From Stappia indica (GTDB taxonomy: Bacteria > Pseudomonadota > Alphaproteobacteria > Rhizobiales > Stappiaceae), in NCBI RefSeq assembly GCF_009789575.1, contig NZ_CP046908.1:3129001-3193000 (forward strand): 64,000 nucleotides of DNA, given 5' to 3'. The notes below the pieces were generated by a model. The model did no database searches. It was not told the origin of the DNA and saw nothing but the letters and a program-made list of their open reading frames with translations. Below are positions 383 through 59,972 of the stretch, piece by piece. Position 1 is the first letter of the stretch. Every line of letters begins with the position of its first letter. Position numbers and translations under genes: made by a program.

Positions 383-393
383 GTCTCGACTTA

Positions 394-418
394 TTGGTCA
401 AACCTGCCGTTTGGTCAA
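394..418. promoter_or_regulatory. Putative GntR operator: direct repeat TTGGTCAA x2
   Basis: Two identical octamers TTGGTCAA (394-401 and 411-418) lie 17 bp apart, just upstream of the GntR start and in the divergent region before the TRAP operon. FadR-subfamily operators often contain TGGT/ACCA half-sites, so this is a reasonable autoregulatory operator. No footprint data; inference from motif and position. Confidence 0.45.
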
Positions 419-578
419 CATCGCGGGGTGCCGATGCTCCCATTGCGGCAATTGCCAGGTCCTGCCTTGCTGGTGATCATCATACCAGTTACAGTTAAGT
501 TGTAAAACGTGTTGACTGGATTGCCGATCGCCGCCAAACTCCGCGACCGGTGCAGGAGACACCAGGGAGGATATCGTT

Positions 579-1562: not shown

Positions 1563-1593
1563 GGTCCTCCCAAGGCCTCGCCCTCCGGCGTCC

Positions 1594-1621
1594 CCGGGGT
1601 GGCCGTACGCGGCCGCCCCGG
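1594..1621 (+). other. Intercistronic hairpin between dctP and dctQ
   Basis: A 12-bp stem (1594-1605 with 1610-1621, one G-U pair) closes a TACG loop directly after the solute-binding gene and touches the ribosome site of dctQ. No U-tract follows. Such hairpins commonly stabilise or partly terminate binding-protein mRNA so that the receptor exceeds the permease; that role is inferred. Confidence 0.6.
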
Positions 1622-1634
1622 CAGGAGTTCGATC

Positions 1635-2153
1635 ATGCAATGGTTCTTCGCTGCCGAGCGCCGGGTGACCCGCGTCGCTCTAGAGCTGTCCATCGTCGCC
1701 CTGGCGGTGATCGTCGCTCTCACCTTCTATCAGGTCGTGACGCGCTTCGTGTTCGGGCATCCTTCCGCGTGGTCGGAAGTGGCGGCCCGCTCGGCGATGA
1801 TGTGGATGGTCTTCCTCGGTCTTGCCGCCGCGTTCCGCCAGGGCGCGATGATCGCCGTCGATTTCCTGATCGACGTCGGGCCGAAGCCGCTGCGGCAGGT
1901 CCTCACCATCGTCATCGCGCTCGCCTCGCTGACGTTTCTCGCCCTGCTGATCTGGTACGGCACGGCCATGGCGTTCCGCGTTCAGCGGCAGAACCTTGCA
2001 GGCCTCGAAGTCAGCATCGCCTGGGTCTATGCGGCCTTGCCCGCCGGTGCCTTGCTGGCCGTGCCCGGGGTCATCGCCCGCACCATCGTCAGCCTCACCG
2101 GTCAGGACGACCTGCGGTCCGGCGAACTGAAGGATGTGGAGGGCCAGGTATGA
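1635..2153 (+). CDS. TRAP transporter small permease (DctQ family)
   Basis: Small membrane subunit of the TRAP transporter, 172 aa from the ATG at 1635, chosen because GCAGGAG lies 7 bp upstream; an earlier GTG start would add 12 residues overlapping the hairpin. Four hydrophobic helices are visible: VALELSIVALAVIVALTFY, the RSAMMWMVFLGLAAAF region, LTIVIALASLTFLALLIWY and VYAALPAGALLAVPGV. The W-S-E-V-A-A-R segment between helices 1 and 2 is typical of DctQ. The stop overlaps the dctM start by 4 bp (ATGA), indicating translational coupling. Confidence 0.93.
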   Translation: MQWFFAAERRVTRVALELSIVALAVIVALTFYQVVTRFVFGHPSAWSEVAARSAMMWMVFLGLAAAFRQGAMIAVDFLIDVGPKPLRQVLTIVIALASLTFLALLIWYGTAMAFRVQRQNLAGLEVSIAWVYAALPAGALLAVPGVIARTIVSLTGQDDLRSGELKDVEGQV

Positions 2154-3427
2154 ACGCGGCTCTGGCCTTTTCGCTGCTGATCCTCTTTGCCGCCGCCGTC
2201 CCCATCGGCGTGTCGCTGGTCCTTGCCAGCGCCTTCGGCATCCAGTTCTTCTCGACCGTGCCGCTGCTGCTCGCCGTGCAGCGCATCTTCGCCAGCCTCG
2301 ACTCCTTCCCGCTGCTCGCCGTCCCGCTGTTCATCCTGTCGGGCAACCTTATGGCGGCCGCGGGCATATCCGAGCGGCTTGTGGAGCTGGCCAAGTCGAT
2401 GGTCGGCGGCATCCAGGGCGGCCTTGCCTGCACCTGCGTCGTCACCTGCATGATCTTCGCCTCGGTCTCAGGCTCCTCGGTCGCCACGACCTTCGCGATC
2501 GGCGTCATTCTCATTCCGGCCATGGTGCGCCATGGCTATCCGGTCGGCACCGCCGCCGCCATCCAGGCCTCCTCGGCAGAGCTCGGCGTGCTGATCCCGC
2601 CGTCGATCCCGCTCATTCTCTACGGCGTTGCGACGGAAACCTCCATCGGCCAGCTGTTCCTGGCCGGCATCGGCCCCGGCATCCTGGTCGCCAGCGCCCT
2701 GTTCATCTACCTGATCATCCTGTGCCGGGTGAAAGGCTACGGAAAGATGGACGGCGACGGGCGCAAGCCCTTCGTCGAGGCCGTGGTGCATGCACTGTGG
2801 GCGCTGCTCATGCCGGTGATCGTGCTCGGCGGCATCTACGGCGGCATCTTCACGCCGACAGAGGCGTCCTCCATCGCGGTCGTCTACGCGCTGTTCGTCG
2901 GCCTCTTCGTCTATCGCTCGCTGACCTTCGCCAAGATCTACGCGGCGCTGCGCACCTCGGCGATCTCCAGCACGGTGATCATGGTCATCATCGCCGGCGC
3001 AGGGCTGTTCTCCTTCCTCGTGACCCGCTCGGGCCTGCCGGCGATCATCGCCGAATGGGTGCAGCAGGTGTTCACCGACCGCATCAGCTTCCTGATGGCG
3101 GTGAACGTCTTCCTCTTCATCGTCGGCATGTTCGTCGAGACCTCGGCGGCCATCCTGGTGCTGGCGCCCCTGCTGGCGCCCATCGCCGTCGCCTATGGCG
3201 TCGATCCGGTGCATTTCGGCCTGATCATCGTGGTGAACCTTGCACTCGGCATGTTCACGCCGCCGGTCGGCGTCAATCTCTTCGCCGCCTGCGCGGTGGC
3301 GAAGATATCCATCCAGAAGATCATTCCGGCCCTGGTGCCGATGGTGCTGGTGGTGATGGGCTGCGTGCTGCTGGTGACCTACGTGCCGTTCATCTCGCTC
3401 GGCCTTGTCGAGCTGTTCTACAGGTAG
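2150..3427 (+). CDS. TRAP transporter large permease (DctM family)
   Basis: Transport-channel subunit, 425 aa, about 12 membrane segments, the standard DctM length. The ATG at 2150 overlaps the dctQ stop. Characteristic stretches are PLFILSGNLMAAAGI (about 55-70), the SGSSVATTFAIG loop, the LGVLIPPSIPLILYG segment (about 145-160) and GIYGGIFTPTEAS (about 230). The C-terminus has FGLIIVVNLALGMFTPPVGVN. It acts with the DctP and DctQ upstream and delivers substrate to the enzymes encoded downstream in the same operon. Confidence 0.95.
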   Translation: MNAALAFSLLILFAAAVPIGVSLVLASAFGIQFFSTVPLLLAVQRIFASLDSFPLLAVPLFILSGNLMAAAGISERLVELAKSMVGGIQGGLACTCVVTCMIFASVSGSSVATTFAIGVILIPAMVRHGYPVGTAAAIQASSAELGVLIPPSIPLILYGVATETSIGQLFLAGIGPGILVASALFIYLIILCRVKGYGKMDGDGRKPFVEAVVHALWALLMPVIVLGGIYGGIFTPTEASSIAVVYALFVGLFVYRSLTFAKIYAALRTSAISSTVIMVIIAGAGLFSFLVTRSGLPAIIAEWVQQVFTDRISFLMAVNVFLFIVGMFVETSAAILVLAPLLAPIAVAYGVDPVHFGLIIVVNLALGMFTPPVGVNLFAACAVAKISIQKIIPALVPMVLVVMGCVLLVTYVPFISLGLVELFYR

Positions 3428-3458
3428 CGGTGGCGCTGCCTTTTTTCGGGAGACTGCA

Positions 3459-4208
3459 ATGAAACTGAAGGACAAGGTGGCCATCGTCACCGGTGCTGGC
3501 GGCGGCTATGGCGAGGGCATTGCCCACTACTTCGCCGAGCAGGGCGCCAAGGTCGTCGTCGCCGACATTCGCGGCGATGCGGCGGAAAAGGTCGCCGGCG
3601 ACATCGGCGCTGCCGCCGTGGCCTGCACCGCAGACGTCACCAGCAGCGAGTCCACCAAGGCGATGGTGCAGGCCGCGCTCGACGCGTTCGGCAAGCTCGA
3701 CATCCTCGTCAACAATGCCGGCACCACCCACAAGAACCAGTCGATGCTGCTGGTCGACGAGGCGACTTTCGACAAGGTCTATGCGGTCAACGTCAAGTCG
3801 ATCTACCACGCGGCGATCCATGCGGTGCCGGTGCTGGAAAAGAACGGCGGCGGCGTCATCATCAACATCGCCTCCACCGCCGGCGTGCGTCCGCGCCCGG
3901 GCCTGACCTGGTACAACGGCTCCAAGGGCGCGGCCATTGCCATCACCCGCTCGATGGCCGTGGAACTCGCCGACCGCAAGATCCGCGTCTGCGGCATCAA
4001 CCCGGTGATGGGCGAGACCGGCCTGACCGGCCAGTTCCTGCCGGGCGACGACACGCCGGAGACCCGTGCGAAGATCGTTGCCGGCATCCCGCTCGGCCGC
4101 ATGTCGCGTCCGCTCGACATCGCCAAGGCCTGCGGCTTCCTCGCCTCCGACGAGGCCGAGTTCATCACCGGCGTCCTGCTGGAAGTCGACGGCGGCCGCT
4201 GCATCTAG
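3459..4208 (+). CDS. SDR-family NAD(P)-dependent oxidoreductase
   Basis: Classical short-chain dehydrogenase, 249 aa from the ATG at 3459; an upstream start would add an 18-residue non-conserved tail. The Rossmann motif GAGGGYGEG is at about 13-21, the NNAG motif at about 86-89, the catalytic Ser in the IASTAG segment, and Y-x3-K as YNGSK (about 152-156). The FLASDEAEFITGVLLEVDGG tail is typical. Position between the transporter and tetronate genes suggests oxidation or reduction of a sugar acid or alcohol entering the pathway. The exact substrate cannot be read from sequence. Confidence 0.93.
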   Translation: MKLKDKVAIVTGAGGGYGEGIAHYFAEQGAKVVVADIRGDAAEKVAGDIGAAAVACTADVTSSESTKAMVQAALDAFGKLDILVNNAGTTHKNQSMLLVDEATFDKVYAVNVKSIYHAAIHAVPVLEKNGGGVIINIASTAGVRPRPGLTWYNGSKGAAIAITRSMAVELADRKIRVCGINPVMGETGLTGQFLPGDDTPETRAKIVAGIPLGRMSRPLDIAKACGFLASDEAEFITGVLLEVDGGRCI

Positions 4209-4219
4209 GCTCCCATGAA

Positions 4220-4263
4220 CGACACCCGGCGCCGGCCCGTATCGGGTGGGGCGCCGGGTGTCG
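4220..4263 (+). other. Intercistronic hairpin, 14-bp perfect stem
   Basis: CGACACCCGGCGCC (4220-4233) is perfectly inverted at 4250-4263 around a 16-nt loop. It lies between the SDR stop and the ribosome site of the next gene and has no U-tract, so it is more likely an mRNA-stability or attenuation element than a full terminator. Confidence 0.6.
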
Positions 4264-4298
4264 CGCCCGGCCCCGCCGCCCGCAAGGAGAGAGTGACA

Positions 4299-5282
4299 AT
4301 GACGACCTGCCTCATCATCGGTGGCGGCGGCATGCTCGGCCAGGGGCTGGCCGGGGCGCTGACCGCGCGGGGAACCCTCGCCGGTGCCGCCCTTTCGCAC
4401 CTGACCCTTTTCGATGTCGTCCCGGCCCGCGCGCCGGAGGGCGGCATTCCCGTCTCGGTCGAGACCGGCGACCTGTGCGCGCCCGGCGAGGCGGAGCGGC
4501 TCGTCTCCTCCCGCCCCGACGTCATCTACCACCTGGCCGCCATCGTCTCCGGCGAGGCCGAGCGCGACTTCGAGAAGGGCTACCGGATCAATCTCGACGG
4601 CACCCGCAACCTGTTCGAGGCGATCCGCGCCGAGAACGGGCGTTCGGGCTACTGCCCCCGTGTCGTGTTCACCTCTTCGCTGGCGGTGTTCGGCATTCCG
4701 CTGCCCGATGTGATCGGCGACGACTACGTGGTCACGCCGCTGTCGAGCTACGGCACGCAGAAGGCCATCGGCGAGTTGCTGCTTGCCGACTACAGCCGCC
4801 GCGGCTTCTTCGACGGCATCGGCCTGCGCCTGCCGACCATCGTGATCCGGCCGGGCAAGCCCAATGCGGCGGCCTCCGGCTTCTTCTCCTCCATCCTGCG
4901 CGAGCCGCTCGCCGGCAAGGAAGCCGTGCTGCCGGTCGGCACCGACGTGCGCCACTGGCTGGCCAGCCCGCGGGCGGCCGTCGGCTATCTCGTCCATGCC
5001 GGCGATCTCGACAGTGGCGCCATGGGCGGGCGTCGCAATATCACGCTGCCGGGCGTCTCCGTGACCGTCGGCGAGCAGATCGAGGCGCTGCGCAAGGTGG
5101 CGGGCGATGAGGCCGTCGCCCTGATCCGCCACCAGCCTGATCCCGCCATCGAGGCGATCATCTCCACCTGGCCGAAAGCCTTCGACACACGCCGCGCGCT
5201 CGATCTCGGCTTTGCCGGCGATGCCTCCATCGAGGCGATCATCACCGCCTATCTCGAGGACCACGCGGGAGCTGCCGCATGA
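4299..5282 (+). CDS. denD: NAD-dependent epimerase/dehydratase-family, D-erythronate dehydrogenase-like
   Basis: Extended-SDR protein, 327 aa from the ATG at 4299, which follows AAGGAGA by 8 bp. The N-terminal Rossmann motif is IIGGGGMLGQGL; the active-site tyrosine and lysine are in SSYGTQKAIGELLL (about 150-165), and RLPTIVIRPGKPN is typical of the DenD family. DenD oxidises D-erythronate to 2-oxo-tetronate. It lies with otnI-, otnK- and otnC-like genes, matching the established tetronate gene neighbourhood. Function assigned from family plus context; a related 4-carbon acid remains possible. Confidence 0.85.
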   Translation: MTTCLIIGGGGMLGQGLAGALTARGTLAGAALSHLTLFDVVPARAPEGGIPVSVETGDLCAPGEAERLVSSRPDVIYHLAAIVSGEAERDFEKGYRINLDGTRNLFEAIRAENGRSGYCPRVVFTSSLAVFGIPLPDVIGDDYVVTPLSSYGTQKAIGELLLADYSRRGFFDGIGLRLPTIVIRPGKPNAAASGFFSSILREPLAGKEAVLPVGTDVRHWLASPRAAVGYLVHAGDLDSGAMGGRRNITLPGVSVTVGEQIEALRKVAGDEAVALIRHQPDPAIEAIISTWPKAFDTRRALDLGFAGDASIEAIITAYLEDHAGAAA

Positions 5283-6238
5283 GCGAGACCGGTCCGCTCG
5301 TCCTCATCGGCCTCGGCGCCATGGGGCTCGGCATGGCGCGCTCGCTGCTGCGCGCCGGCCTCGATGTCACCGGCATCGACCGGGAGCAGGCGGCCATGGC
5401 TGCCTTCGAGGCGGATGGCGGACGCATCGCCGCTGATCGCGCCGCGCGCGATGCCGCGCTTCGCGAGGCCTCGGCCGTCGTGCTCGTCGTCGTCAACGCG
5501 GCCCAGACCGAGGCCGTGCTTTTCGGCGAGGACGGCATCGCGCCGCATCTTGCCCCCGGCACCGTGGTCGTCTCCTGCGCCACCTTCGCCCCCGAACATG
5601 CCGTGCGTTTCGAGGCGAAGCTCGCCGAAACCGGCCTGCTCTATCTCGATGCGCCGATCTCCGGCGGCGCGGTCCGTGCCGCCGAGGGGCGCCTGTCGAT
5701 CATGGCCTCGGGCACAGCCGAGGCCTTCTCAGCGGCCCGCCCCGCGCTTGACGCGATGGCCGAGACGGTGTTCGAACTCGGCGACCGCGCCGGTCCGGGT
5801 TCGGCCATGAAGGTGGTCAACCAGCTGCTTGCCGGCGTCCACATCGCCGCCACTGCCGAGGCGCTGACCTTCGGCGTTGGTCAGGGCATCGAGGTGGCGC
5901 GCATGGTGGAGGTGATCTCCCGCTGCGCCGGCTCGTCCTGGATGTTCGAGAACCGCGGCCCCTTCATCGCCGATGGCGACTATCGCCCGCATTCGGCGGT
6001 CGATATCTTCGTCAAGGATCTCGGCATCGTCGCCGAGGCGGCGACGGCCGGTGGGCTCTCCGTTCCGCTGACGGAAACGGCGCTCGCCCGCTTCCGGTCC
6101 GCCCATGACGCAGGTCTCGGCCGCGAGGGCGACGTGGCGGTCGCCAAGATCTATGCCCGCGAGGGCAACATCGCCCTGCCGGGCGTCCCGGCACCGGGCG
6201 CGGACGTTTTGGGCGGGACTTCCAGCGACAAGGATTGA
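5279..6238 (+). CDS. ltnD: 3-hydroxyisobutyrate-dehydrogenase-like, L-threonate dehydrogenase
   Basis: Beta-hydroxyacid dehydrogenase, 319 aa. It has the N-terminal GLGAMGLGMA nucleotide-binding motif, the substrate-binding DAPISGGAVRAAEG segment (about 124-137) and the catalytic Lys in GSAMKVVNQLL (about 180). The start overlaps the denD stop by 4 bp. LtnD oxidises L-threonate to 2-oxo-tetronate, so this operon seems able to feed both D-erythronate and L-threonate into one intermediate. Substrate is inferred from family and the otn neighbours. Confidence 0.88.
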   Translation: MSETGPLVLIGLGAMGLGMARSLLRAGLDVTGIDREQAAMAAFEADGGRIAADRAARDAALREASAVVLVVVNAAQTEAVLFGEDGIAPHLAPGTVVVSCATFAPEHAVRFEAKLAETGLLYLDAPISGGAVRAAEGRLSIMASGTAEAFSAARPALDAMAETVFELGDRAGPGSAMKVVNQLLAGVHIAATAEALTFGVGQGIEVARMVEVISRCAGSSWMFENRGPFIADGDYRPHSAVDIFVKDLGIVAEAATAGGLSVPLTETALARFRSAHDAGLGREGDVAVAKIYAREGNIALPGVPAPGADVLGGTSSDKD

Positions 6239-8156: not shown

Positions 8157-8945
8157 ATGACCGTGAACAAGACCTCCCTGCCGCTTTCGGCCAATCTCGG
8201 CTTCTTGTGGACCGATCTTGCGCTGCCGCAAGCGGTGCATGCGGCGGCGGCTGCCGGCTTCGGCGCGGTCGAGCTGCACTGGCCCTATGAGGTGCCGGCG
8301 GCCGAGCTTGCCGCCGCCCTCAAAGAGACCGGCCTGCCGGTGCTCGGGCTCAACACGGTGCGCGGCGACGTGGCGAAGGGCGAGTTCGGTCTCGCCGCCC
8401 TTGCCGGGCGCGAGGACGAGGCGCTCGCCGCCTTCACGCAGGCGCTCGACTATGCGGTGGCCATCGGCGCCGGCAATATCCATGTCATGGCCGGAAAGGC
8501 GGACGGGGAGGCCGCGCGCCGCACCTTCGTCGCCAACCTGCGCCGTTTCCGCGACCTCGCTGCCCCCAGGGGCGTGAGCCTGCTGCTGGAGCCGATCAAC
8601 ACCCGCGATGTGCCGGGCTACTTCCTGTCGGACTGCGAGAGCGCCGCTTCGATCATTTCGGAATGCGGCGGCGAGGGCATCCGCATCATGTATGACTGCT
8701 ACCACATGCAGATCATGCGCGGCGACCTGCTGCGCCAGGCCGAGCGCTGGATGGACTTGATCGGCCACGTCCAGTTCGCCGCCGTCCCCGACCGGGGCGA
8801 GCCGGGCCGGGGCGAGGTCGACTATGGCTGGTTGCTGCCGGCCTTGCGCGATGCCGGTTATCGGGGCCATTTCGGCGCGGAATACCGGCCACGCGGCGCG
8901 ACCGGCGAGGGTCTCGGCTGGATGAAGGCTTTCGCGGGCGCCTGA
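8157..8945 (+). CDS. otnI: 2-oxo-tetronate isomerase (hydroxypyruvate isomerase family)
   Basis: TIM-barrel isomerase of the Hyi/OtnI family, 262 aa, 6 bp after otnC. Metal-binding residues are in LLEPINTRDVPGYF (about 140-153), MYDCYHMQIM (about 180) and GHVQFAAVPDRGEP, ending with the GAEYRP segment. OtnI interconverts 2-oxo- and 3-oxo-tetronate, linking the two dehydrogenases upstream to the kinase. It is the last gene of the operon, followed by a convergent gene. Confidence 0.9.
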   Translation: MTVNKTSLPLSANLGFLWTDLALPQAVHAAAAAGFGAVELHWPYEVPAAELAAALKETGLPVLGLNTVRGDVAKGEFGLAALAGREDEALAAFTQALDYAVAIGAGNIHVMAGKADGEAARRTFVANLRRFRDLAAPRGVSLLLEPINTRDVPGYFLSDCESAASIISECGGEGIRIMYDCYHMQIMRGDLLRQAERWMDLIGHVQFAAVPDRGEPGRGEVDYGWLLPALRDAGYRGHFGAEYRPRGATGEGLGWMKAFAGA

Positions 8946-28689: not shown

Positions 28690-29994
28690 CTACCGAAGCA
28701 GGTTCGGCAGGAACAGGACGAGCGAGGGGAACAGGATCATCACGGCGATGCGGAGGATGTCGGCGACGATGAACGGCGCGACGCCCTTGTAGATTTCCCA
28801 GATGTCGGTGTTCTTCGATATGCCCTTGATGACGAAGACGTTCAGGCCGAAGGGCGGACTGATCATGCCGATCTCGACGGTCATGGTGACGATCACGCCG
28901 AACCAGATCGGGTCGAAGCCGAGCTGGGTGATGATCGGATAGACGATCGGCACGGTGAGGATGACGACCGCGGCCGAGTCCATCACGCAGCCCAGCACCA
29001 GCATCACGGCAAGGATCACCAGCAGCGTGCCATAGGCGCCGAGATCGGCATCCAGCAGCACCTGCGCCACCTTCTGCGGCGTCTGGGTGATCGTCAGGAA
29101 GTAGCCGAACAGCAGGGCGCCGGCGAGGATCGTCAGGATCGCGGCGGCCGTGCGCACGCTCTCGGTCAGCGAGATGAACAGGCGCTCGAAGGAAAAGCGC
29201 CGCGAGGCGAAGGCGATGACGATGGCGCCGGTGGCGCCGACGGCGCCCGCCTCTGTCGGCGTGAAGATGCCGCCATAAATGCCGCCGATCACGGTGAGGC
29301 AGAGCAGAATGATCGGGCTGAGCCGGGTGAGGCTGACGACGCGCTCGCGCAAGGGCGGCACGATGCCGGCCGGCGCATCCTGGGGGCGGCGCATCAGCCA
29401 CAGCCGTGCGGTCAGCATGTAGAAGCCGATGGCGATGATGCCCGGCACCACGCCGGCCATGAACAGCAGGCCGATGCTCTGCTGGGTCAGGAGCCCGTAG
29501 ATGGCGAGCGCGATGGAGGGCGGGATGAGCACGCCGAGCGTGCCGCCGGCGGCGATGACGCCGGTGGCCAGGCGCTCGGAATAGCCGTAGCGGGTCATCT
29601 CCGGCAGGGCGAGGCGGGTCATGGTTGCAGCGGTCGCAGCCGACGAGCCGCAGATCGCGGCAAAGCCGCCGCAGGAGGCGATGGTCGCCGCCGCGAGCCC
29701 GCCGCGGAAGCCGCCGAACCACAGCTGGGCGGCGCGGAACAGGTCGGCGCTGATGCCCGAGGCGACCGCGACCGCACCCATCAGGATGAACAGCGGGATC
29801 AGGCCCATCGTGTAGTCGGAAAAGGTCGAGATGACCGAATGGGAGACCAGGCGGAAGGCGGGCTCGAACCCGGTCAGCAGGCCGAAGCCGAGGATGCCCG
29901 AGCTGCCCATGGCAAGGCCGATGGGCACGCGCAGCGCGCACAGCACCAAGGTCAGACCGAACCCGAGGAACATCACGAGGTTGGTGTCCAGCAT
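28690..29994 (-). CDS. TRAP transporter large permease (DctM family), second system
   Basis: 434 aa, about 12 membrane helices. Typical motifs: PLFILMGAVAVASGISADLF (about 45-65), GGFAAICGSSAATAATM, GGTLGVLIPPSIALAIYGLLT and GIYGGIFTPTEAGAVGA. The C-terminus has GMISPPFGLNVFVIKGI. Third gene of the minus-strand TRAP operon; separated by 69 bp from dctQ. Confidence 0.94.
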   Translation of the reverse strand: MLDTNLVMFLGFGLTLVLCALRVPIGLAMGSSGILGFGLLTGFEPAFRLVSHSVISTFSDYTMGLIPLFILMGAVAVASGISADLFRAAQLWFGGFRGGLAAATIASCGGFAAICGSSAATAATMTRLALPEMTRYGYSERLATGVIAAGGTLGVLIPPSIALAIYGLLTQQSIGLLFMAGVVPGIIAIGFYMLTARLWLMRRPQDAPAGIVPPLRERVVSLTRLSPIILLCLTVIGGIYGGIFTPTEAGAVGATGAIVIAFASRRFSFERLFISLTESVRTAAAILTILAGALLFGYFLTITQTPQKVAQVLLDADLGAYGTLLVILAVMLVLGCVMDSAAVVILTVPIVYPIITQLGFDPIWFGVIVTMTVEIGMISPPFGLNVFVIKGISKNTDIWEIYKGVAPFIVADILRIAVMILFPSLVLFLPNLLR

Positions 29995-42054: not shown

Positions 42055-43041
42055 ATGAAAAACCTGAGCAGAGCGATCATTCTCGCCGTCGGCGCCACGT
42101 TCGCCGGCGCGGCCCATGCCGCCGACTTCACCTTCACCTTCGCCCACGTCCTGACCGAGGACACGCCGAACGCCCGCGCGGCGGTGGTCTTCAAGGAAGA
42201 GGTCGAGAAGAACTCCAACGGCCGGATCGAGATCAACATCCGCCCGGCCGCGCAGCTCGGCGGCGACGTCGAGATCATCGAGCAGACGCAGATGGGCCTC
42301 GTCCACATCGCGATCCCGCCGACCGGCAACCTCGCCAACTTCAACGAGCAGATGTACCTGTTCGACCTGCCGTTCCTGCTGAACGACAACGCCGCGATGA
42401 TGCGCGTTCTCGACGGCGAGGTCGGCACCGAGCTGCTGGCGACGCTCGACGGCAACAATCTGCACGGCATCGCCATGTGGGGCGCCGGCTTCCGCCACAT
42501 GACCAACAACATCCGCCCGATCAACGGCCCGGCCGATCTCGCCGGCATCAAGATGCGCACCCTGCAGGCGCCGACCATCCTGTCGACCTACCGCGCCTAT
42601 GGCGCGAACCCGACCGCGATGGCCTATGTCGAGGTCTATAACGGGTTGCAGCAGGGCGTCATCGAGGGCCAGGAGAACCCGCTCGCCAACATCGCCTCGA
42701 TGAAGTTCTACGAGGTGCAGAAGTACATGACCCTGACCGGCCATGCCTACCACACCTATGCGGCCGTGATGAACAAGCAGGCCTGGGAAAGCCTGCCGGA
42801 AGACCTGCAGACCGTGATCGCGGACGCCATGATCGTCGGTCGCGACGCTGCCCGCCAGTTCACCAACGAGGACGAGGCCAAGACCCTCGACGCGATCAAG
42901 GACCAGATCGAGATCCAGTCGCTGTCCGACGAAGGCCGCGCGGCGTTCATCGAGGCTTCCAAGCCGATCTACGACGAGTTCCGCGACAAGGTCACGCCGG
43001 CCCTGATGGACAAGGCGATCGCGCTCGCCAAGGGCGAGTAA
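42055..43041 (+). CDS. TRAP transporter solute-binding protein (DctP family), third system
   Basis: 328 aa from the ATG at 42055, preceded by GGAGGAGAG. Signal peptide 1-22 (MKNLSRAIILAVGATFAGAAHA). Similar to the DctP at 579 (shared FAHVLTEDTPNARAA-type start, QTQMGLVHIAIPPTGNLANF, VYNGLQQGVIEGQENPL). Ligand arginine in LAGIKMRTLQAPT (about 165-178). 38 bp after the amidase, same operon. Confidence 0.95.
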   Translation: MKNLSRAIILAVGATFAGAAHAADFTFTFAHVLTEDTPNARAAVVFKEEVEKNSNGRIEINIRPAAQLGGDVEIIEQTQMGLVHIAIPPTGNLANFNEQMYLFDLPFLLNDNAAMMRVLDGEVGTELLATLDGNNLHGIAMWGAGFRHMTNNIRPINGPADLAGIKMRTLQAPTILSTYRAYGANPTAMAYVEVYNGLQQGVIEGQENPLANIASMKFYEVQKYMTLTGHAYHTYAAVMNKQAWESLPEDLQTVIADAMIVGRDAARQFTNEDEAKTLDAIKDQIEIQSLSDEGRAAFIEASKPIYDEFRDKVTPALMDKAIALAKGE

Positions 43042-43064
43042 ACCACGAAGAAGAGGGTCGCGGC

Positions 43065-43574
43065 ATGATCACCTGGTTGAACAAGCTGGTTGACGTCATC
43101 GAGAACACGCTGGTCAGCGGGTTGATATTGACCGCGACCCTCGTCGCCATCGCGCAGGTCATCGCGCGCTACGTCTTCAACAATTCGCTCTACTGGTCGG
43201 AGGAGGTGGTTCTCTACTCCTTCATCACCATGAGCTTCCTGACGATGGGCATGGGCGTGCGCTACGCCTCCCATATCAGCGTCGAGGCGATCTACGCCTT
43301 CGTGCCGGAAAAGATGGTCCGGCCGCTGCAGATCGGCGCCGCCTGCCTCGGCCTGATCTTTGCCGGCGTGGTGCTGTGGTACGGCAGCAAGCTGGTCATC
43401 AACACCTCGCGCATGGGCCAGCTCTCGCCGGCCCTGCGCATCCCCGTCGGCTACATCTATTCCGTCATCCCCTTTGCGGCGGGACTGATGATCACCCGTT
43501 ATCTCCTGGTCCTGCAGGAGCTCGTATCCGGGCGCGCCTATACGCCGCCCGCCGTCGACATCAAAACGAGCTGA
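43065..43574 (+). CDS. TRAP transporter small permease (DctQ family), third system
   Basis: 169 aa, four hydrophobic helices, with the DctQ landmark ARYVFNNSLYWSEEVVLYSFITMSFLTMGMGVRYASHISVE (about 28-68). Between the solute receptor and large permease, 12 bp before the latter. Confidence 0.94.
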   Translation: MITWLNKLVDVIENTLVSGLILTATLVAIAQVIARYVFNNSLYWSEEVVLYSFITMSFLTMGMGVRYASHISVEAIYAFVPEKMVRPLQIGAACLGLIFAGVVLWYGSKLVINTSRMGQLSPALRIPVGYIYSVIPFAAGLMITRYLLVLQELVSGRAYTPPAVDIKTS

Positions 43575-43586
43575 GGAGCCCCATCC

Positions 43587-44861
43587 ATGGTCGGCGCACT
43601 CGTCCCCGTCTTCTTCGGCCTGCTCGTTTTCGGCCTGCCCATCTTTGCCGCCCTGGCGCTGTCGGTGGCAGCCGCGCTCTATTTCTGGGGCGGCCTCGAT
43701 CCCGTGCTCGTGCCGATGCGCATGTTCTCGGGCATGAACAACTTCTCGCTGATGTCGATCCCGTTCTTCATCCTGGCGGCCGAGCTGATGCGCATCGGCG
43801 GCCTGTCGGAACGGCTGATCAACCTGGCGCGCGCCATCGTCGGATGGCTGCCGGGCGGCCTTGCGGCCGCCGCCGTCGTCGCCTGCCTGATGTTCGGATC
43901 GATCTCCGGCTCCAGCCCGGCGACGGTGATCGCCATCGGCTCGATCCTCTACCCGGCGATGGTCAAGGCAGGCTACGACAAGTACTTCTCCATCGGCCTG
44001 ATCACCACCGCCGGCACGCTCGGCCCCATCGTGCCGCCGTCCATCGCGCTGATCATCTACGGCTCGGTCACCGGCACCTCGGTCGGCAAGCTGTTCGCAG
44101 CCGGCCTGCTGCCGGCGCTGCTGATCGGCGGCATCCTGATCGCCTATGCCAGCTGGTATTCGGCGCGCAAGGGATACCCGCGCGACGCGATGCCGACCAT
44201 CGCCAGCATCTGGGCGGCCTTGACGCAGGCGGCCTGGGGCCTCGGCCTGCCGTTCATCCTGCTCGGCGGCATCTATTCGGGCGTCTTCACGCCGACCGAG
44301 GCGGCGGCCGCGGCCTGCCTCTACGGCTGGCTGGTCGGCGCGGTGGTCTACCGGACCATCTCGCTCAAGGACACGCTGGTGGTGCTGCGCAACACCGGCC
44401 TGATCTCCGGCCCGCTGCTGCTGATCACCGCGGGCGCCTCGGCCTTCTCCTGGCTGCTGGCGAGCTCCGGCACCCCGGCGCAGCTGGCGAGCTTCATCCT
44501 CAGCGACACCAGCAATTCCATCGTGGTGATGCTGCTGTTCAACCTGATCCTGCTGGTGGCCGGCTGCTTCCTCGACAGCGCCTCGGCGATCATCATCCTC
44601 GGCCCGCTGATGATGCCCATCGCGGCGCAGGTCGGCGTTGACCCGATCCATTTCGGCATCATCATGCTGGTCAACCTGTCGGTCGGCATGCTGACCCCGC
44701 CCGTCGGGCTCAACCTGTTCGTCGCCATGGGCGTCGCCAACATGAAGCTGGGTGAGATCTTCCGCGCCGCCCTGCCGACGATCGTCCTGATGCTGGTGGC
44801 GCTGGTGATCCTGACCTACGTGCCGTTCTTCAGCATGCTGCTGCCGAACACGTTCTTCTAG
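43587..44861 (+). CDS. TRAP transporter large permease (DctM family), third system
   Basis: 424 aa, about 12 helices. DctM motifs IPFFILAAELMRIGGLSERL (about 54-73), FGSISGSSPATVIAIGS, AGTLGPIVPPSIALIIYG (about 140-158), GIYSGVFTPTEAAAAACLYG and the terminal FGIIMLVNLSVGMLTPPVGLNLFV. Last gene of the amidase/TRAP operon; followed by a strong terminator at 44928. Confidence 0.95.
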   Translation: MVGALVPVFFGLLVFGLPIFAALALSVAAALYFWGGLDPVLVPMRMFSGMNNFSLMSIPFFILAAELMRIGGLSERLINLARAIVGWLPGGLAAAAVVACLMFGSISGSSPATVIAIGSILYPAMVKAGYDKYFSIGLITTAGTLGPIVPPSIALIIYGSVTGTSVGKLFAAGLLPALLIGGILIAYASWYSARKGYPRDAMPTIASIWAALTQAAWGLGLPFILLGGIYSGVFTPTEAAAAACLYGWLVGAVVYRTISLKDTLVVLRNTGLISGPLLLITAGASAFSWLLASSGTPAQLASFILSDTSNSIVVMLLFNLILLVAGCFLDSASAIIILGPLMMPIAAQVGVDPIHFGIIMLVNLSVGMLTPPVGLNLFVAMGVANMKLGEIFRAALPTIVLMLVALVILTYVPFFSMLLPNTFF

Positions 44862-44910
44862 GCAGACACGTTTCCAGGCATACCCGCGCGGGCCCGCGCA
44901 CCGGCGAAGC

Positions 44911-45150
44911 TACCGCCCCGATCACCGACCAGCGCGCATGGGCTCATGTGCGCTGGTTTTGTTTTTTTTGGGGGGGGGCGAGGGGGCGTGATGGCGCGAG
45001 CGAGATGGCTCTCTCTTGGGAGTGCGTGAAACGCAGAGTGACGTCCACGCCATAGCCCTTCTGATTGAGGAAGGAGAGCCGGCCGCGATGGGGTGGGAAC
45101 CGGAAGGGCAGCTTCTGGGCGGCGAAGCTGGGATAGCGGCCGTTCACGTA
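44911..45150. repeat. Dispersed repeat R, copy 1 (terminator, G-tract, conserved tail)
   Basis: Two conserved blocks with a variable middle are shared with 57737-58015 in the same orientation. Block one is CCCCGATCACC... through the terminator and G-tract (about 44915-44980). Block two begins CCACGCCATAGCCC (45045) and includes TGATTGAGGAAGGAGAG, then weaker similarity to about 45150. No protein is supported here; this accounts for most of the 430-bp gap before the reverse transcriptase. Confidence 0.65.
44928..44969 (+). terminator. Intrinsic terminator after TRAP operon
   Basis: A 13-bp stem (ACCAGCGCGCATG with CATGTGCGCTGGT, one G-T pair), GGCT loop, then TTTTG followed by T8. Located 66 bp after the dctM stop. 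Immediately followed by a run of G residues (44970 on), an unusual feature shared with the copy at 57753. Confidence 0.9.
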
Positions 45151-45294
45151 GCCGCCGCACTTCGGCGGCAACGCGCCTTCATCTCGGTCGTTCGAGCTCC
45201 GCTTCCCTCTCCCTGATAGCTGTCGTTCGCTGCGACCCCGACTAATGACCGGATTCCTCAGAAAGCTGACCGGGCTGCAACAAACAGAATCTGC

Positions 45295-46632
45295 TTATTT
45301 TGCTGCTTTCTTCTGAGCGTGGTCGAACATATCTGCTGTCGAAGGGACGCCAAGTATCATTGCTTTGACCCGATGATCGGCCTTCCCAAGCTGCCGAACA
45401 ATCACGCCGTGGTAGTCGGCGACCTGTTTCGCAATGTAATCGTCGAGATGCTCGAAGGGTTGACGTTGATTGCAGAAGGAGAAAGATTTTTGCCACCCAT
45501 AGATGCGCTTACCCAGGGAGTCCAACGTGGCGCTCTGTGAATGCTTGGAGTTCAGGGGAGTGCCCTTCGTTAGAGCTTCCTTGATCGCTGCCTTTGAAGA
45601 TGCAAGCGTCTCTCGGACGCCTTCCTTCATGTTATCGATGGATTTCGCGCTGGGGACGCATCGCTTCGGCTGAAGAGTACAGCCAAGGAAGTTGATGGAC
45701 TTGCTACACTCCCCTTGCGCGGCCTTGTCTGGGCCGTCTGCGGGATTGTAGAGGCCAAAGCCAAAGTCTGTCAGGGTTTTCTCAGCATGAGTTTTGGCAG
45801 CGTCGATGGATGCTTGGTCGGCACCGACCATGAGAATGTCATCTATGTATCTCACCGCCGTCACGCCCATAGTGTTCAGCTTCTGATCCATGTCGTAAAG
45901 CAACACATTCCCCGCGAAGGCCGAGAGAGAAGATCCTTGGGCAACGCCGATGCCGCCCTTAGGAAACAGGTGTGTGTAGCCAACAAGCTCATCTTCATTT
46001 CCCAAGTGAACTTCAAGGGCCTTAGAAAACAGTGCAACGAATGCTTCGTCTCCGGTTTCACGCTGAACGAAGCTGACCACCTTGTCTGTGGGTATCTTGG
46101 TGAAGAAAGCCCGGATGTCGGACTGAAAGTAGAGGCCTGCGCCACCGTCAATCGCGGTCATGATTGTCTCGATGGCGGGGCGAACACCGCCATGAGGGTA
46201 GATCAGCCCACCAACGCCATACTTCGATCGGTTGACGTCGTTGATGCGCCCCAGCCGGTCGTCGCGAACAGTCTCATATCGTGTGTTCGGGTCGCGCAGG
46301 TTACGCGCCTGCCGTGGCTGTAGAACCTGTAGGATCGCCCGCTGCACAACACGGTTCTGGATGGTGGATATTGCGATGGGGCGTGGGTCTTTACCTGCTG
46401 CAAGACGCTTGCGCTTGTCCTTCAAGACGCCCTCGACAGGATCAAAGGAGAGTTTGCCGGTACGCAGTTGGCCGATAATGCGCCTAAGGTGGCGCTGATG
46501 AGCGTGCTCGAACTCGGAGGCTTTGCCGCGAATGTCCGCGTTGCCTGAGGTCAAAGCGCTGCGCTTTACGTGTCGCCAAGCTGAGAAGATGTTTTGTTCG
46601 CTTCTGACCTCTTCGAATAGTGTCTTCGCCAT
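45295..46632 (-). CDS. Reverse transcriptase (unassigned, not group II intron or classical DGR)
   Basis: 445 aa from the ATG at 46632; a longer frame begins at 46686 inside the preceding small frame. RT motifs in order: R84-P-I-A-I-S region with QNRVVQRAILQ (93-103), motif A with catalytic Asp in FQSDIRAFFTKI (169-180), motif B GGIGVAQGSSLSAFAGN (226-242), motif C YIDD (262-265), and INFLGCTL (313-320). A thumb-like helical C-terminus follows (KRIYGWQKSFSF...DDYIAKQV), with no HNH, maturase X or protease domain. DGR RTs have a different motif B. GC is lower than in flanking metabolic genes. Probably a stand-alone, defence-type (UG/DRT-like) RT; subgroup not assignable by eye. Confidence 0.85.
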   Translation of the reverse strand: MAKTLFEEVRSEQNIFSAWRHVKRSALTSGNADIRGKASEFEHAHQRHLRRIIGQLRTGKLSFDPVEGVLKDKRKRLAAGKDPRPIAISTIQNRVVQRAILQVLQPRQARNLRDPNTRYETVRDDRLGRINDVNRSKYGVGGLIYPHGGVRPAIETIMTAIDGGAGLYFQSDIRAFFTKIPTDKVVSFVQRETGDEAFVALFSKALEVHLGNEDELVGYTHLFPKGGIGVAQGSSLSAFAGNVLLYDMDQKLNTMGVTAVRYIDDILMVGADQASIDAAKTHAEKTLTDFGFGLYNPADGPDKAAQGECSKSINFLGCTLQPKRCVPSAKSIDNMKEGVRETLASSKAAIKEALTKGTPLNSKHSQSATLDSLGKRIYGWQKSFSFCNQRQPFEHLDDYIAKQVADYHGVIVRQLGKADHRVKAMILGVPSTADMFDHAQKKAAK

Positions 46633-46654
46633 GGTCTTCGCTCGGGTCCTCCGC

Positions 46655-46846
46655 TCATACAAACCCGACCGTTGACGGACACCCATCCTCTGCGCACGGC
46701 ATGGCCGCTACGACAGACACCTCAGCGGCAACTGCCACCTTGGCGAGGTCTACCTGGCGCACGATCCGCATGGACAGGTCCAGCTTCACGTCGGACGCCA
46801 TGGCGACCATGAACGCTGCAGCGAGCGCGACCAGAGTTCTGCGCAC
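46655..46846 (-). CDS. Possible small ORF immediately upstream of the reverse transcriptase
   Basis: 63 codons from a GTG at 46846, ending 22 bp before the RT start. It begins like a signal peptide (MRRTLVALAAAFMVAMAS) and has four Ala/Val-rich residues per turn after that. Most of it lies within the 130-bp repeat. In the upstream repeat copy the same residues occur in a frame with a different start, and there is one Ser/Tyr change. No strong ribosome site. It may be coding, or only the sense of a structured RNA leader. Confidence 0.35.
   Translation of the reverse strand: MRRTLVALAAAFMVAMASDVKLDLSMRIVRQVDLAKVAVAAEVSVVAAMPCAEDGCPSTVGFV
46682..46811. repeat. 130-bp repeat, RT-proximal copy
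   Basis: Identical to 47043-47172 except at one base (G at 46773, T at 47134; C and A in the RT sense). Direct orientation, 361 bp apart. Flanks diverge, although a few codons beyond the core still agree in sense (T-V-G-F). Lies between the RT promoter and the RT start, i.e. in its transcribed leader. Confidence 0.95.
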
Positions 46847-46907
46847 GCCGGTAAGCCAGCTCAGGCGAGCCGGTTTTTCGGGGCAAGTTCACACATTTCT
46901 CCGCCTT

Positions 46908-46936
46908 CTACCTTAGCAGGTTTTTGGCAATGTCAA
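46908..46936 (-). promoter_or_regulatory. Possible promoter for the RT transcript
   Basis: On the minus strand TTGACA (complement of 46931-46936) is followed 15-17 bp on by TAAGGT/AGGTAG. It would start a transcript near 46900 containing the RT-proximal repeat copy as a 270-nt leader. The -10 match is weak. Confidence 0.35.
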
Positions 46937-47042
46937 GCGCGTTTCGCCCCGGCCACGCCCGCCGCTTTGAATGCTTATCTGCTGCTTGGAGGCCGTCGGA
47001 AGACGGTGCATTCACAGCTTCAAAGCCAACGGTCAGGCCTAG

Positions 47043-47172
47043 CCCATCCTCTGCGCACGGCATGGCCGCTACGACAGACACCTCAGCGGCAACTGCCACC
47101 TTGGCGAGGTCTACCTGGCGCACGATCCGCATGTACAGGTCCAGCTTCACGTCGGACGCCATGGCGACCATG
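47043..47172. repeat. 130-bp repeat, RT-distal copy
   Basis: Partner of 46682-46811 (129 of 130 bases identical). It is inside a longer minus-strand frame (46908-47330) that shows no recognisable protein. The surrounding sequence up to the tRNA copy (47173-47537) contains no other supported gene and could hold non-coding RNA. Confidence 0.95.
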
Positions 47173-47537
47173 GACATGCGTGTTATTGTGGTAACGCGGG
47201 GCCACCCGTTCAAGAGGGCAGAAAACACTATTCCCCGAGATTCATGAATGTGGTCGACATCCGAGGTTAGGATCTGCCGTTTACTGCTAGGGTCATCAAA
47301 GACTACTAAGGGCCGGAAGCGCCGGTGCATTCAGCACCAACGGATGCCAGCTAACCGCACTCGGAGCACGCTGACCGCAAGTTTCCTTACGCCCCCGATT
47401 AAGTCGATAGATGGGTACGCTGGGAACGACAGCTTTCGGGAAGCCGTCAATGATCATGGGATGACAGAGATGGCGTCGAAAGCCACCGCTACCGACCTTC
47501 CAGAACTATCGTCCGGAGTTTAGATCCTGCGATGTGG

Positions 47538-47702
47538 TATGCCAGTCGACGCTCGCCGCTCGCTAGCACTACCGCATTATAGAAAATAGGGGGAAATGGC
47601 GGAGAGAGAGGGATTCGAGCCCTCGATACGGTTTTCCGTATACAGGCGTTCCAGGCGTGCGCCTTAAACCGCTCGGCCACCTCTCCGCAGCCGGCCCGTC
47701 CA
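47538..47702. repeat. tRNA-Ser-containing segmental repeat, copy 1
   Basis: About 160 bp matching 59804-59972 in direct orientation: a tRNA-Ser with roughly 50 bp beyond its 3' end (GCACTACCGCATTATAG versus GCACTATCGCATTATAG) and 16 identical bases before its 5' end (CGCAGCCGGCCCGTCC). It extends past the tRNA on both sides, unlike an ordinary att core. Confidence 0.75.
47597..47686 (-). tRNA. Degenerate tRNA-Ser(GGA) copy
   Basis: 90 nt including encoded CCA, long variable arm, anticodon GGA in loop CTGGAAC. It differs from the intact copy at 59867 by four bases. One puts a C-C mismatch in the anticodon stem, and another changes the invariant T54 of the T-loop to C (CTCGAAT). Probably a pseudogene or weak tRNA. 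Confidence 0.7.
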
Positions 47703-48173
47703 GCTGGCTCCGGGCGTGCCAGCCGTGACGGCGGTCGAGGAGGCCGGTTTCGTCTCCGCGTTTCTTCAGAAGCGCCAATCGCTCATTGCGGCCGGAGCTC
47801 ACGAGGAAAGGGACCCTGACCCCATCTTCTCGACCAATCTTGGCGTGGGGTCAATTGCGCGCAGCGCCAGCGGCTGCCGGATACTCTCCGGTCTTCAAAT
47901 CGAGACGAGGCCGGGCCGCGAGCCGCTTTTCAACTCTTTCAGCGGTGAGGAAACGGGATGCTCGCCGCCGCGCTGAGCCAATCGGCGACTGCCAGCCTGA
48001 TGCTCGCCCGCAAGGCCGGTGAGCTGTTCTTCCGCGAGCCGTGACCGCTTCATTGCCCGCCTCCTTTTTTGAGGAACAGGCAAACCGAAGATCGGGGATA
48101 TCTCGGGGAGAACGTCATCCTCTACGGCAAGGGCATGCCGCACCTGCGAGTCTCCAAAGACCTGCAGGCGTCT
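47703..48173. other. 470-bp gap, no supported gene
   Basis: Short frames only. A stretch around 47958-48043 reads MLAAALSQSATASLMLARKAG then ELFFREP before a stop, and 48066-48185 has another open segment, so decayed coding DNA is possible. No tRNA, terminator or insertion ends were recognised. Confidence 0.4.
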
Positions 48174-49742
48174 TTATCCGGTGGAACGCGCGGAGGGAGC
48201 GCCCTCGGCAGATTTCGCCGCTTGCCGATACTCCTGTTGCAACAGGCGCTTCAGCAGCTTGCCATTGGGCTCGCGTGGCAGACGGAGGCGGAAATCCACC
48301 GTTCGCGGGCATTTGATGGGGGACAGCCGCGTCCGGCAAAAGGCGATCAACTCTTCAGCCAGTGCCGGTGACGGCTGCGCTCCATCCACGAGTTCGACGA
48401 CCGCTTTCACCTCTTCTCCGAAGTCGGCGTTGGGCACGCCGAACACTGCAGCGTCGGCCACCGCCGGATGCGTGACAAGAATGTTCTCGGTCTCCTGAGG
48501 ATAGATGTTCACGCCGCCGGAGATGATTACAAAGGACTTGCGGTCGGTCAGGTAGAGATAGCCGTCTGCATCGACCCGCCCGATATCGCCCAGCGTCGTC
48601 CAGCCCAGACGGTTGCGTGCCTTGCGGGTCTTGTCCGGATCGTTGTGATACTCGAAGGGAACGCCGTTGGCGAAGTAGACCTCGCCTTCGCTGCCGAGCG
48701 GCAGTTCTTCCCCTCCGTCATTGCAGATGTGCAGCCTGCCCAGCTTGGCACGACCCACCGACCCGGGATGGGCCAGCCATTCTCCAGTGTCGAGAGCGCA
48801 GAAACCGTTGTTCTCCGTACCCGCGTAATATTCCATCAGGATCGGACCCCACCAGTCGATCATCTGCCGCTTGACCTCGATGGGGCAGGGAGCAGCGGCA
48901 TGGACCGCCATCTGCAGGGAAGACAGATCGTAGCGGCGGCGCACCTCGTCCGACAGCTTCAGCATCCGCACGAACATCGTCGGCACCCACTGGCTGTGCG
49001 TGATCCGATGCGCCTCGATGAGAGCCAGGGCTTCTTCCGCGTCGAACTTCGGCATGATGACCGCCGATCCCCCGCGCTTCAGCGTCGTCATGGTGTGCCG
49101 CAACGGCGCAGCATGGTAGAGCGGCGCCGGATTGAGATAGCGGGTCTGCGCGCCATACCCGAACAGATCGCACAGGAGCTCGATCAGAAAGGTCATCCGG
49201 CCGGGAGGCTGCGCCGGCAGCGGCCATTTCACGCCCTTGGGTCGGCCCGTGGTCCCCGACGAATACAACATGTCGAGCCCCTGCGCCGGATCGGCAATCT
49301 CATGCGTGGGCATGTCGCGGCACATATCGTCCCAGCAGGCTGCGCCCGCGCAGGGCTCTCCCACCATGAAGATCGGGACCTCCGGCGGCAGCTGGGCACG
49401 CAACATGCCGGCGACCTCGGCAAATCGCCCGGAGGTGATCACCAGCTTCGCGCCGCAATCGCGCGCGATGTAGAGCACTTCGTCTGCGGAAAGCTGGGTG
49501 CTGGCCGTCGTGTAGTAGAGCCCCGACCGGTCGGCAGCGAAACAGGTTTCCAGAAACTCGCGGCGGTTCTCCATCAGGATGAGAATGTGGTCGCCGACGA
49601 CAAGACCTTGCGCGCGCAGAAGATGCGCCCCCTGGTTGGACCGCCGGTCGAGGTCTGCGAAGGTAACGGTCTCTCCCGTGTCCGCCATGACATAGGCGAG
49701 CCGGTTCGGGTCGCGCCTGGCAACCTGATCGATGTACAACAT
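48174..49742 (-). CDS. AMP-dependent acyl-CoA synthetase/ligase
   Basis: 522 aa from the ATG at 49742 (a GTG at 49781 would add 13 unconserved residues). ATP/AMP motif LYSSGTTGRPKGVKWP (about 160-175), EYYAGTENNG (about 305), WTTLGDIGRVDADGYLYLTDRKSFVIISGGVNIYP (about 400-434), and the catalytic Lys in PNGKLLKR near the C-terminus. Activates a carboxylic acid to its CoA ester in the cytoplasm. Last gene of the Liv/acyl-CoA operon, 81 bp after the oxidoreductase. Confidence 0.93.
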   Translation of the reverse strand: MLYIDQVARRDPNRLAYVMADTGETVTFADLDRRSNQGAHLLRAQGLVVGDHILILMENRREFLETCFAADRSGLYYTTASTQLSADEVLYIARDCGAKLVITSGRFAEVAGMLRAQLPPEVPIFMVGEPCAGAACWDDMCRDMPTHEIADPAQGLDMLYSSGTTGRPKGVKWPLPAQPPGRMTFLIELLCDLFGYGAQTRYLNPAPLYHAAPLRHTMTTLKRGGSAVIMPKFDAEEALALIEAHRITHSQWVPTMFVRMLKLSDEVRRRYDLSSLQMAVHAAAPCPIEVKRQMIDWWGPILMEYYAGTENNGFCALDTGEWLAHPGSVGRAKLGRLHICNDGGEELPLGSEGEVYFANGVPFEYHNDPDKTRKARNRLGWTTLGDIGRVDADGYLYLTDRKSFVIISGGVNIYPQETENILVTHPAVADAAVFGVPNADFGEEVKAVVELVDGAQPSPALAEELIAFCRTRLSPIKCPRTVDFRLRLPREPNGKLLKRLLQQEYRQAAKSAEGAPSARSTG

Positions 49743-59803: not shown

Positions 59804-59972
59804 TATGCGCGCCAATCGACGTACGACGCTCGGCGGCACTATCGCATTATAGGAAATCGGGGAAAATGGCGGAGAGAGAGGGATTCGAACCCTCGATACG
59901 GTTTCCCGTATACACGCGTTCCAGGCGTGCGCCTTAAACCACTCGGCCACCTCTCCGCAGCCGGCCCGTCCG
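59804..59972. repeat. tRNA-Ser-containing segmental repeat, copy 2
   Basis: Direct partner of 47538-47702, containing the intact tRNA-Ser and about 50 bp past its 3' end plus 16 bp before its 5' end. Confidence 0.75.
59867..59956 (-). tRNA. tRNA-Ser(GGA)
   Basis: 90 nt with encoded CCA, type-II long variable arm (TATACGGGAAACCGTATC region), anticodon loop CTGGAAC giving GGA, T-loop TTCGAAT, and acceptor GGAGAGG paired with TCTCTCC. All stems pair, in contrast to the copy at 47597. The 3' side faces the HEPN-like genes and the Liv operon, the usual side for island integration. Confidence 0.95.

Follow-up and report, generated by a model that had tools for sequence, protein, structure and literature searches.

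The G2L4 reverse transcriptases (RTs) form a bacterial group with solved structures to which a role in DNA repair has been assigned, and their defining feature is the motif YIDD instead of YADD in RT5 (PMC4244168). Passages of PMC12337344 describe double-strand break repair by microhomology end joining for the RT of Pseudomonas aeruginosa, and a preference of G2L4 RT for strand annealing. DRT2 joins an RT to a noncoding RNA (ncRNA), and its concatemeric cDNA creates a gene (PMC12632851); DRT10 combines a UG17 RT, a SLATT protein, and an ncRNA with tandem-repeat cDNA. Here we compare with these systems a locus of Stappia indica that lies in a window of 64,000 nucleotides, the whole stretch of DNA analyzed.

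On its sequence, the RT of this locus is a G2L4-type group II intron-like enzyme. In a phmmer search against solved structures it matches the G2L4 RT entries 9d5x (E = 3e-55) and 9d4s (E = 5e-55), with the next match at 5e-12. The active-site motif is RYIDDIL, and Y/FIDD is present in every G2L4 locus examined. In an alignment of six G2L4 RT sequences, the RT3a (plug) insertion before the AQG motif is retained, with a two-residue gap in this region relative to 9d5x. The P. aeruginosa enzyme thus resembles the window RT in RT group, YIDD motif, RT3a-region insertion, and the lack of any intron RNA found, at 32% protein identity. An Rfam scan of 44800-48200 (E up to 5) returned no group II intron family, on which ground a group II intron remnant is rejected, and no retron RNA. 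The retron RT profile falls far under its cut-off, and the PADLOC RT_UG17 and NCBIfam group II RT profiles match far below their family cut-offs or through the RT core only. The original prediction had proposed to place this enzyme among the UG/DRT, Abi, retron, and DGR RTs; that placement was not supported. By sequence the RT is of the G2L4 type and not an ordinary UG/DRT, Abi, or DGR enzyme, and probably not a retron RT.

The features of the locus, all on the minus strand, are as follows.

45295-46686, minus: RT open reading frame (ORF) as given in the ORF list
45295-46632, minus: G2L4-type RT, 445 aa, YIDD, insertion before RT4 (RT3a plug region), from phmmer and alignment
46633-46681, minus: RT 5' leader, with the R2-frame stop TGA at 46657-46655 and a TCGGG...CCCGA hairpin around GGAGG
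46682-46814, minus: R2, proximal 133-bp copy, encoding the part of the small ORF after the membrane helix
46815-47042, minus: spacer S, 228 bp
within spacer S, minus: S3', containing P2 and the first (5') half of the frame for the small membrane protein
46856-46878, minus: AAAAAC followed by the hairpin CCGGCTC-GCCT-GAGCTGG
46908-46936, minus: candidate internal promoter P2, TTGACA (46936-46931) and TAAGGTAG (46915-46908)
46948-47042, minus: S5', following R1; conserved, with a predicted RNA fold and a frame that is open from R1
47043-47175, minus: R1, distal 133-bp copy, immediately downstream of candidate promoter P1
47185-47213, minus: candidate promoter P1 by consensus match only, TTGAAC (47213-47208), 17 nt, CACAAT (47190-47185)
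45209-47314, minus: mobile cassette, approximate, inferred from other loci
47597-47686, minus: tRNA-Ser (GGA) copy upstream of the cassette, an accessory-gene hotspot

The likely RT start is the ATG at 46632 (MAKTLFEE...), with GGAGG upstream at 46652-46648 and a start region kept among relatives; the ATG at 46686 lies within the end of R2, in the RT frame and out of the R frame. The locus order is P1-R1-S(P2)-R2-RT, and the 5.1-Mb genome holds a single copy of it. R1 and R2 are identical at 131 of 133 positions (BLAST E = 5e-61, far beyond chance), and the sequences flanking the two copies are unrelated, confirming the direct repeat before the RT that the original prediction described. Its count of 129 out of 130 refers to the same repeat minus three end bases. 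The single A-to-C difference that it reported is present at R position 42 (distal A, proximal C), and there is a second difference at position 3 (distal C, proximal T).

Close relatives of the locus number 21 (in Rhodobacterales, Rhizobiales, Acetobacteraceae, and others), with RTs mostly 80-93% identical and down to 61-65%; further close loci include one in another genus of the same family and one in a Mu-like prophage contig. Every one of these loci has R immediately upstream of the RT (in L016 as 112 bp only, at a contig edge). Most have two copies with a start-to-start distance of 361, or 355 in two loci. One locus, L002, has three copies in the order R-S-R-S-R, all R identical and both S identical. 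About seven have a single R, among them one whose RT is truncated and one that runs off its contig; in the single-R loci, either the pair is not strictly required or the loci are decaying. In Alpha proteobacterium BAL199 (L021, 5001-8928), the RT is seemingly split by an insertion, with matches at 5001-5550 and 8402-8928 and an opposite-strand ORF between them.

The two R copies evolve in concert. Among 15 two- or three-copy elements, the copies within an element show zero to five differences (mean 0.93) and are identical in eight, versus a mean of 9.4 differences between orthologous proximal copies of different elements (P = 6e-9, Mann-Whitney). Departures from the R consensus are common to both copies in 62 cases and occur in one copy only in 14. 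The near-identity of the copies therefore reflects ongoing copying or homogenization, as had been proposed from the window.

The paired layout is conserved far beyond this clade. Every intact G2L4 locus with ~1 kb of upstream DNA, at RT identities of 27-35%, has a repeat pair of its own, with the proximal copy near the RT start. The deep-clade pairs are 103-137 bp long, 95.6-100% identical, and 328-392 bp apart, and are mostly unalignable between deep clades. Among distant G2L4 loci, the copies are identical over 132 bp in L053, 99% identical in L054, L055, L080, and L084, 98.5% in L068, 97% in L056, and 96% in L057; among nearer ones, the values are 100% in L067 and L069 and 99% in L081. One P. 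aeruginosa G2L4 locus, in a plasmid-borne island, shares the paired-repeat architecture of the window, having two 132-bp copies, 100% identical and 376 bp apart, 69 bp before the RT. The same arrangement accompanies three YADD RTs (L087/L095, L096, and L097), of which L087 has 22% identity to the window RT. When 698 kb of sequence from 98 loci, some overlapping, were searched for direct repeats of at least 95 bp with at least 95% identity and a spacing of 280-400 bp, all 47 pairs recovered adjoined an RT of this kind. The pair is absent from six control RT loci (group II introns and others) and from the YADD group II-like RT loci L070/L071 and L088-L091, where the upstream sequence is mostly short. 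Two further G2L4 loci, L085 and L086, lack a leader and have RTs truncated at the 5' end, L082 and L083 stop at contig edges, and L059 combines a single R with an RT that contains an in-frame TGA. A query of viral contigs with the P. aeruginosa RT found nothing.

The association of repeat and RT claimed for the window therefore extends to homologous RT loci, since close relatives carry R one to three times and distant G2L4 loci carry a pair of their own. A generic dispersed repeat is rejected as well: R occupies one locus in the genome of the window, and RT-less R was seen only as decayed fragments on two Rhizobium plasmids (L035 4001-4124 and L036 4001-4082). Recognition by covariance models, also foreseen in the original prediction, succeeds in part. 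Models of R or S5' from the close clade score in L067, L069, L081, and L059, and the S5' fold is recognized in the first three; neither R nor S5' was found by these models in P. aeruginosa-type loci, so that they do not establish one RNA family across the clades. A paired, homogenized repeat is thus a constant feature of loci that encode G2L4 RTs and also accompanies some YADD relatives, and the same layout with unrelated repeat sequences in distant relatives indicates that the copies are actively kept alike.

Within the close clade, synonymous divergence (pS) is 0.635 for the RT gene, against 0.127 for R and 0.106 for S5'. R and S5' are therefore held at the nucleotide level, under a constraint approximately fivefold tighter than that on RT synonymous sites. 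R has a closed predicted fold whose ends coincide with the repeat ends; in this fold 97% of cells are paired and five pairs are changed on both sides, a result reached by none of 500 shuffles. For S5', whose fold is a prediction, the covariation test was uninformative. Covariation in the R fold and the synonymous constraint agree with the expectation of a conserved, structured leader that belongs to the RT.

The repeat is also part of a reading frame. The R2 frame continues a hydrophobic helix begun in S3' and crossing the S|R2 boundary, and it does so in distant clades as well, in unrelated DNA. In the loci inspected, a 17-aa hydrophobic window across or just before this boundary mostly scores 1.4-2.6 (L084 is weaker, at 1.17); in the YADD loci, the helix lies entirely in S, ahead of R2. 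The membrane frame starts with MQKRA (ATG or TTG) in six distant clades, and most distant clades have an ATG or TTG start; the N-terminal half in the window clade has only GTG in the R frame and no good start codon. Downstream of R1, the frame chosen from R2 runs into S without a stop for a median of 61.5 codons, compared with 9.5 for the other frames (P = 2e-6) and with 16 codons for the same frame after R2 (P = 7e-6), where the tail is short and unconserved. In the close clade, the frame is open from R1 to S+108 in 15 out of 15 loci, both other frames being closed in all 15, and pN/pS in the open frame is 0.40 in R and 0.48 in S5'. R2 thus continues the S3' membrane-helix ORF in frame, and the frame stays open from R1 into S5'. 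Since the sequence that would complete the protein follows R1 and not R2, the two halves of the small gene appear to be stored in permuted order, overlapping in R. In L002, the three identical R and two identical S mean that the joined frame is physically present in that genome. These frame tests (pN/pS and the open frame after R1) weaken the idea that R is a structured ncRNA only.

Distant G2L4 loci carry TGCAAAAACGTGCCA and a hairpin in place of the AAAAAC-hairpin of the window. An overlapping mini-ORF (M..CKNVP) is present in L053 (4765-4959) and in S3' of L053-L057 and L068, and it shares TGCAAAAACGTGCCA and the hairpin with the MQKRA start, the whole being invariant amid unrelated flanking DNA; the site could be an overlapping start or a frameshift site. 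Candidate P1 ends 9 nt ahead of R1 and appears in most close relatives as CTTGAA/CTTGACC...TATATC, and candidate P2 is kept within the close clade. The S5' sequence GACCGTTG (47027-47034) is the reverse complement of CAACGGTC (46667-46674) in the RT leader and is kept throughout the close clade, so that long-range pairing between the sequences after R1 and after R2 is possible.

Unrelated loci often stop matching one another at -500 and +1605, counted from the R2 start, which identifies a cassette of ~2.1 kb as the unit of transfer; similarity of the window to other loci ends at ~47222 and ~45215. The window RT lies between a tRNA-Ser gene and a TRAP transporter operon, and the cassette adjoins tRNA-Ser in three distant G2L4 loci as well. 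Three sister genomes (L092, L093, and L094, same genus) have different genes at the TRAP|tRNA-Ser site, where the cargo includes ~386-aa and ~459-aa proteins of unassigned family; these sites carry other cargo, and no clean empty site was seen among them. In L030 the cassette sits inside a Mu-like prophage (2262-4372), antisense between the phage protease and virion-morphogenesis genes, and the related phage KT381864 has a 126-bp intergenic gap at this site. Nearby ORFs encode integrases and invertases or match PADLOC families, a setting that fits anti-phage or other accessory cargo.

The tRNA-Ser(GGA) is part of a 161-bp duplication in the window (47541-47701 and 59811-59971, 91% identical); the RT-side copy is altered in its anticodon stem and T-loop, possibly a sign of decay. 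Shorter repeat pairs lie at 44914-44979/57739-57800 (92%) and 45045-45098/57912-57963 (89%). Both tRNA-Ser copies thus stand in matching islands comprising a gene end, a terminator-like repeat, accessory cargo, and tRNA-Ser, and the cargo of the second island (58.1-59.5 kb) consists of uncharacterized ORFs. The window also has three paralogous TRAP-type transporter segments (1-3394, 29236-29567, and 42219-44831), with 64-68% DNA identity over long stretches and up to 87% in short ones.

We tentatively favor a reading in which a template switch by the RT, from one R copy to the other, joins the halves of the membrane-protein gene, a mechanism that we regard as plausible though short of probable. 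The locus would store the gene in permuted form, the C-terminal half as R1-S5' and the N-terminal half as S3'-R2, overlapping in R. A transcript from P1 would have its first nucleotide at the 5' end of R1 or close to it; the RNA would therefore begin with R and hold a second R. The RT would copy to the RNA 5' end, the nascent cDNA would be transferred from R1 to R2, and the product would be an R-S circle or tandem (R-S)n DNA, in which P2 would drive the joined gene S3'-R-S5', analogous to gene assembly in DRT2. Identity of the R copies would be maintained by this copying or by recombination between the product DNA and the locus, and the cassette would serve as accessory cargo, probably anti-phage. 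Whether G2L4-type RTs and some YADD relatives are in general gene-assembly machines, with a permuted gene, an R overlap of ~100-137 bp, and a joined gene absent from the chromosome, is a more speculative proposal that we hold with some doubt, and with the same doubt its corollary that this process also keeps the overlaps identical over deep evolutionary time. Several findings count against template switching as the explanation. The frame is open for just 17 codons after R1 in L087, and L015 has a stop codon inside R; P1 and P2 are consensus matches and are weak in several clades; the N-terminal half has only a GTG to start from in the window clade; some RTs at least are intact in single-R loci; RecA recombination between 130-bp direct repeats could homogenize, expand, or contract them free of any RT; and double-strand break repair is the one function that experiments have assigned to G2L4 RTs.

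The main rival, somewhat unlikely in our judgment, is that R is a bifunctional RNA element: R1-S5' would be a partner ncRNA of the RT (template or scaffold), R2 an RT-binding element in the mRNA leader that mediates autoregulation, RecA gene conversion would keep the copies alike, and the open frames would be a by-product of GC-rich constrained RNA. The strong conservation of R and S5' at synonymous sites, the covariation in the R fold, the S5' fold found again in L067, L069, and L081, and the hairpin around the RT ribosome-binding site all agree with this; the DRT2, DRT9, and DRT10 RTs have upstream ncRNAs, and RecA conversion of direct repeats is ordinary biology. However, it leaves unexplained why a membrane-helix frame crosses S|R2 in unalignable loci, why a long open frame follows R1 specifically, and why pN/pS is below 1 in that frame only. 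It is improbable that two small genes, a membrane-anchored S3'-R2 and a leaderless R1-S5' expressed from P1, share a repeated coding module homogenized by gene conversion. R1 in the close clade begins ATGTCCATGG a few nucleotides after the -10 box, and several deep clades have an early ATG in R1, both in favor of this reading; but in G2L4 loci the membrane helix has already begun where R starts, an odd design for an R1 protein made by itself, L053, L057, and L084 have no early in-frame ATG, and the tail after R2 is short and unconserved. A role of the RT solely in double-strand break repair by microhomology end joining, with a regulatory leader irrelevant to its activity, draws on the published function as given in passages of PMC12337344 and on the closest solved homologs being G2L4 RT structures. 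We think this improbable too, given a leader more conserved than RT synonymous sites that accompanies RTs only 22-35% identical, YADD enzymes included.

A selfish LTR-like retroelement, whose repeats enable retrotransposition, would account for a ~2.1-kb cassette with recurrent ends in unrelated loci and genera and for the decayed R fragments in Rhizobium plasmids, and LTR retroelements likewise have identical direct repeats that evolve in concert and an RNA that, as proposed here, begins with R. We consider it very improbable, since both repeats lie upstream of the RT with no second LTR, each genome has one copy, the cassette has no integrase or endonuclease, and a target-site duplication is not established; an LTR element proper is rejected on the position of the repeats. 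The layout also recalls diversity-generating retroelements (DGRs) in having two near-identical repeats of ~130 bp near an RT, one of them in the 3' portion of a small gene, but the order and the RT group differ. Over all loci the base in R1 at R1/R2 mismatches may be A, T, C, or G, with no adenine bias; DGR mutagenesis is thus rejected, and the A-to-C difference singled out in the window is no DGR signature.

Returning to template switching between the R copies, its proposed logic is that of DRT2: template switching at a repeat during reverse transcription assembles an ORF that the chromosome lacks. The two differ in RT group and in the repeats, which are ~100-137 bp here, and the joined product is here a prediction. 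Unit lengths (361, 376, 368, 367, 346, 352, and others) are mostly not multiples of three, and an endless ORF in the manner of DRT2 is therefore rejected. DRT10 shares with the locus an upstream RNA, a membrane protein, and an RT, and UG17 is the best PADLOC profile for the window RT; however, this match is generic to the RT domain and the G2L4 structures score higher, the DRT10 motif is YVDD rather than YIDD, and its template is a short A-B-A' motif. No SLATT-like ORF was found in the cassette, whose neighbors are the tRNA gene and TRAP transporter and AMP-ligase genes.

The passages searched in two G2L4 papers contain no mention of a duplicated leader or membrane frame. A text search of the literature for G2L4 together with direct repeats returned general RT surveys only; an earlier mention is possible, as Park et al. 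2022, reportedly the original functional paper on G2L4, was outside its scope. G2L4 loci thus appear to hold a large second component, a homogenized repeat pair and a split membrane-protein frame, for which there appears to be no description in the literature searched. This suggests that the natural substrate of these RTs may be the RNA or DNA of their own locus rather than random breaks. The paired repeat would offer a reason for an RT that favors strand annealing, and these loci provide a natural case of repeat homogenization by RT copying or recombination.
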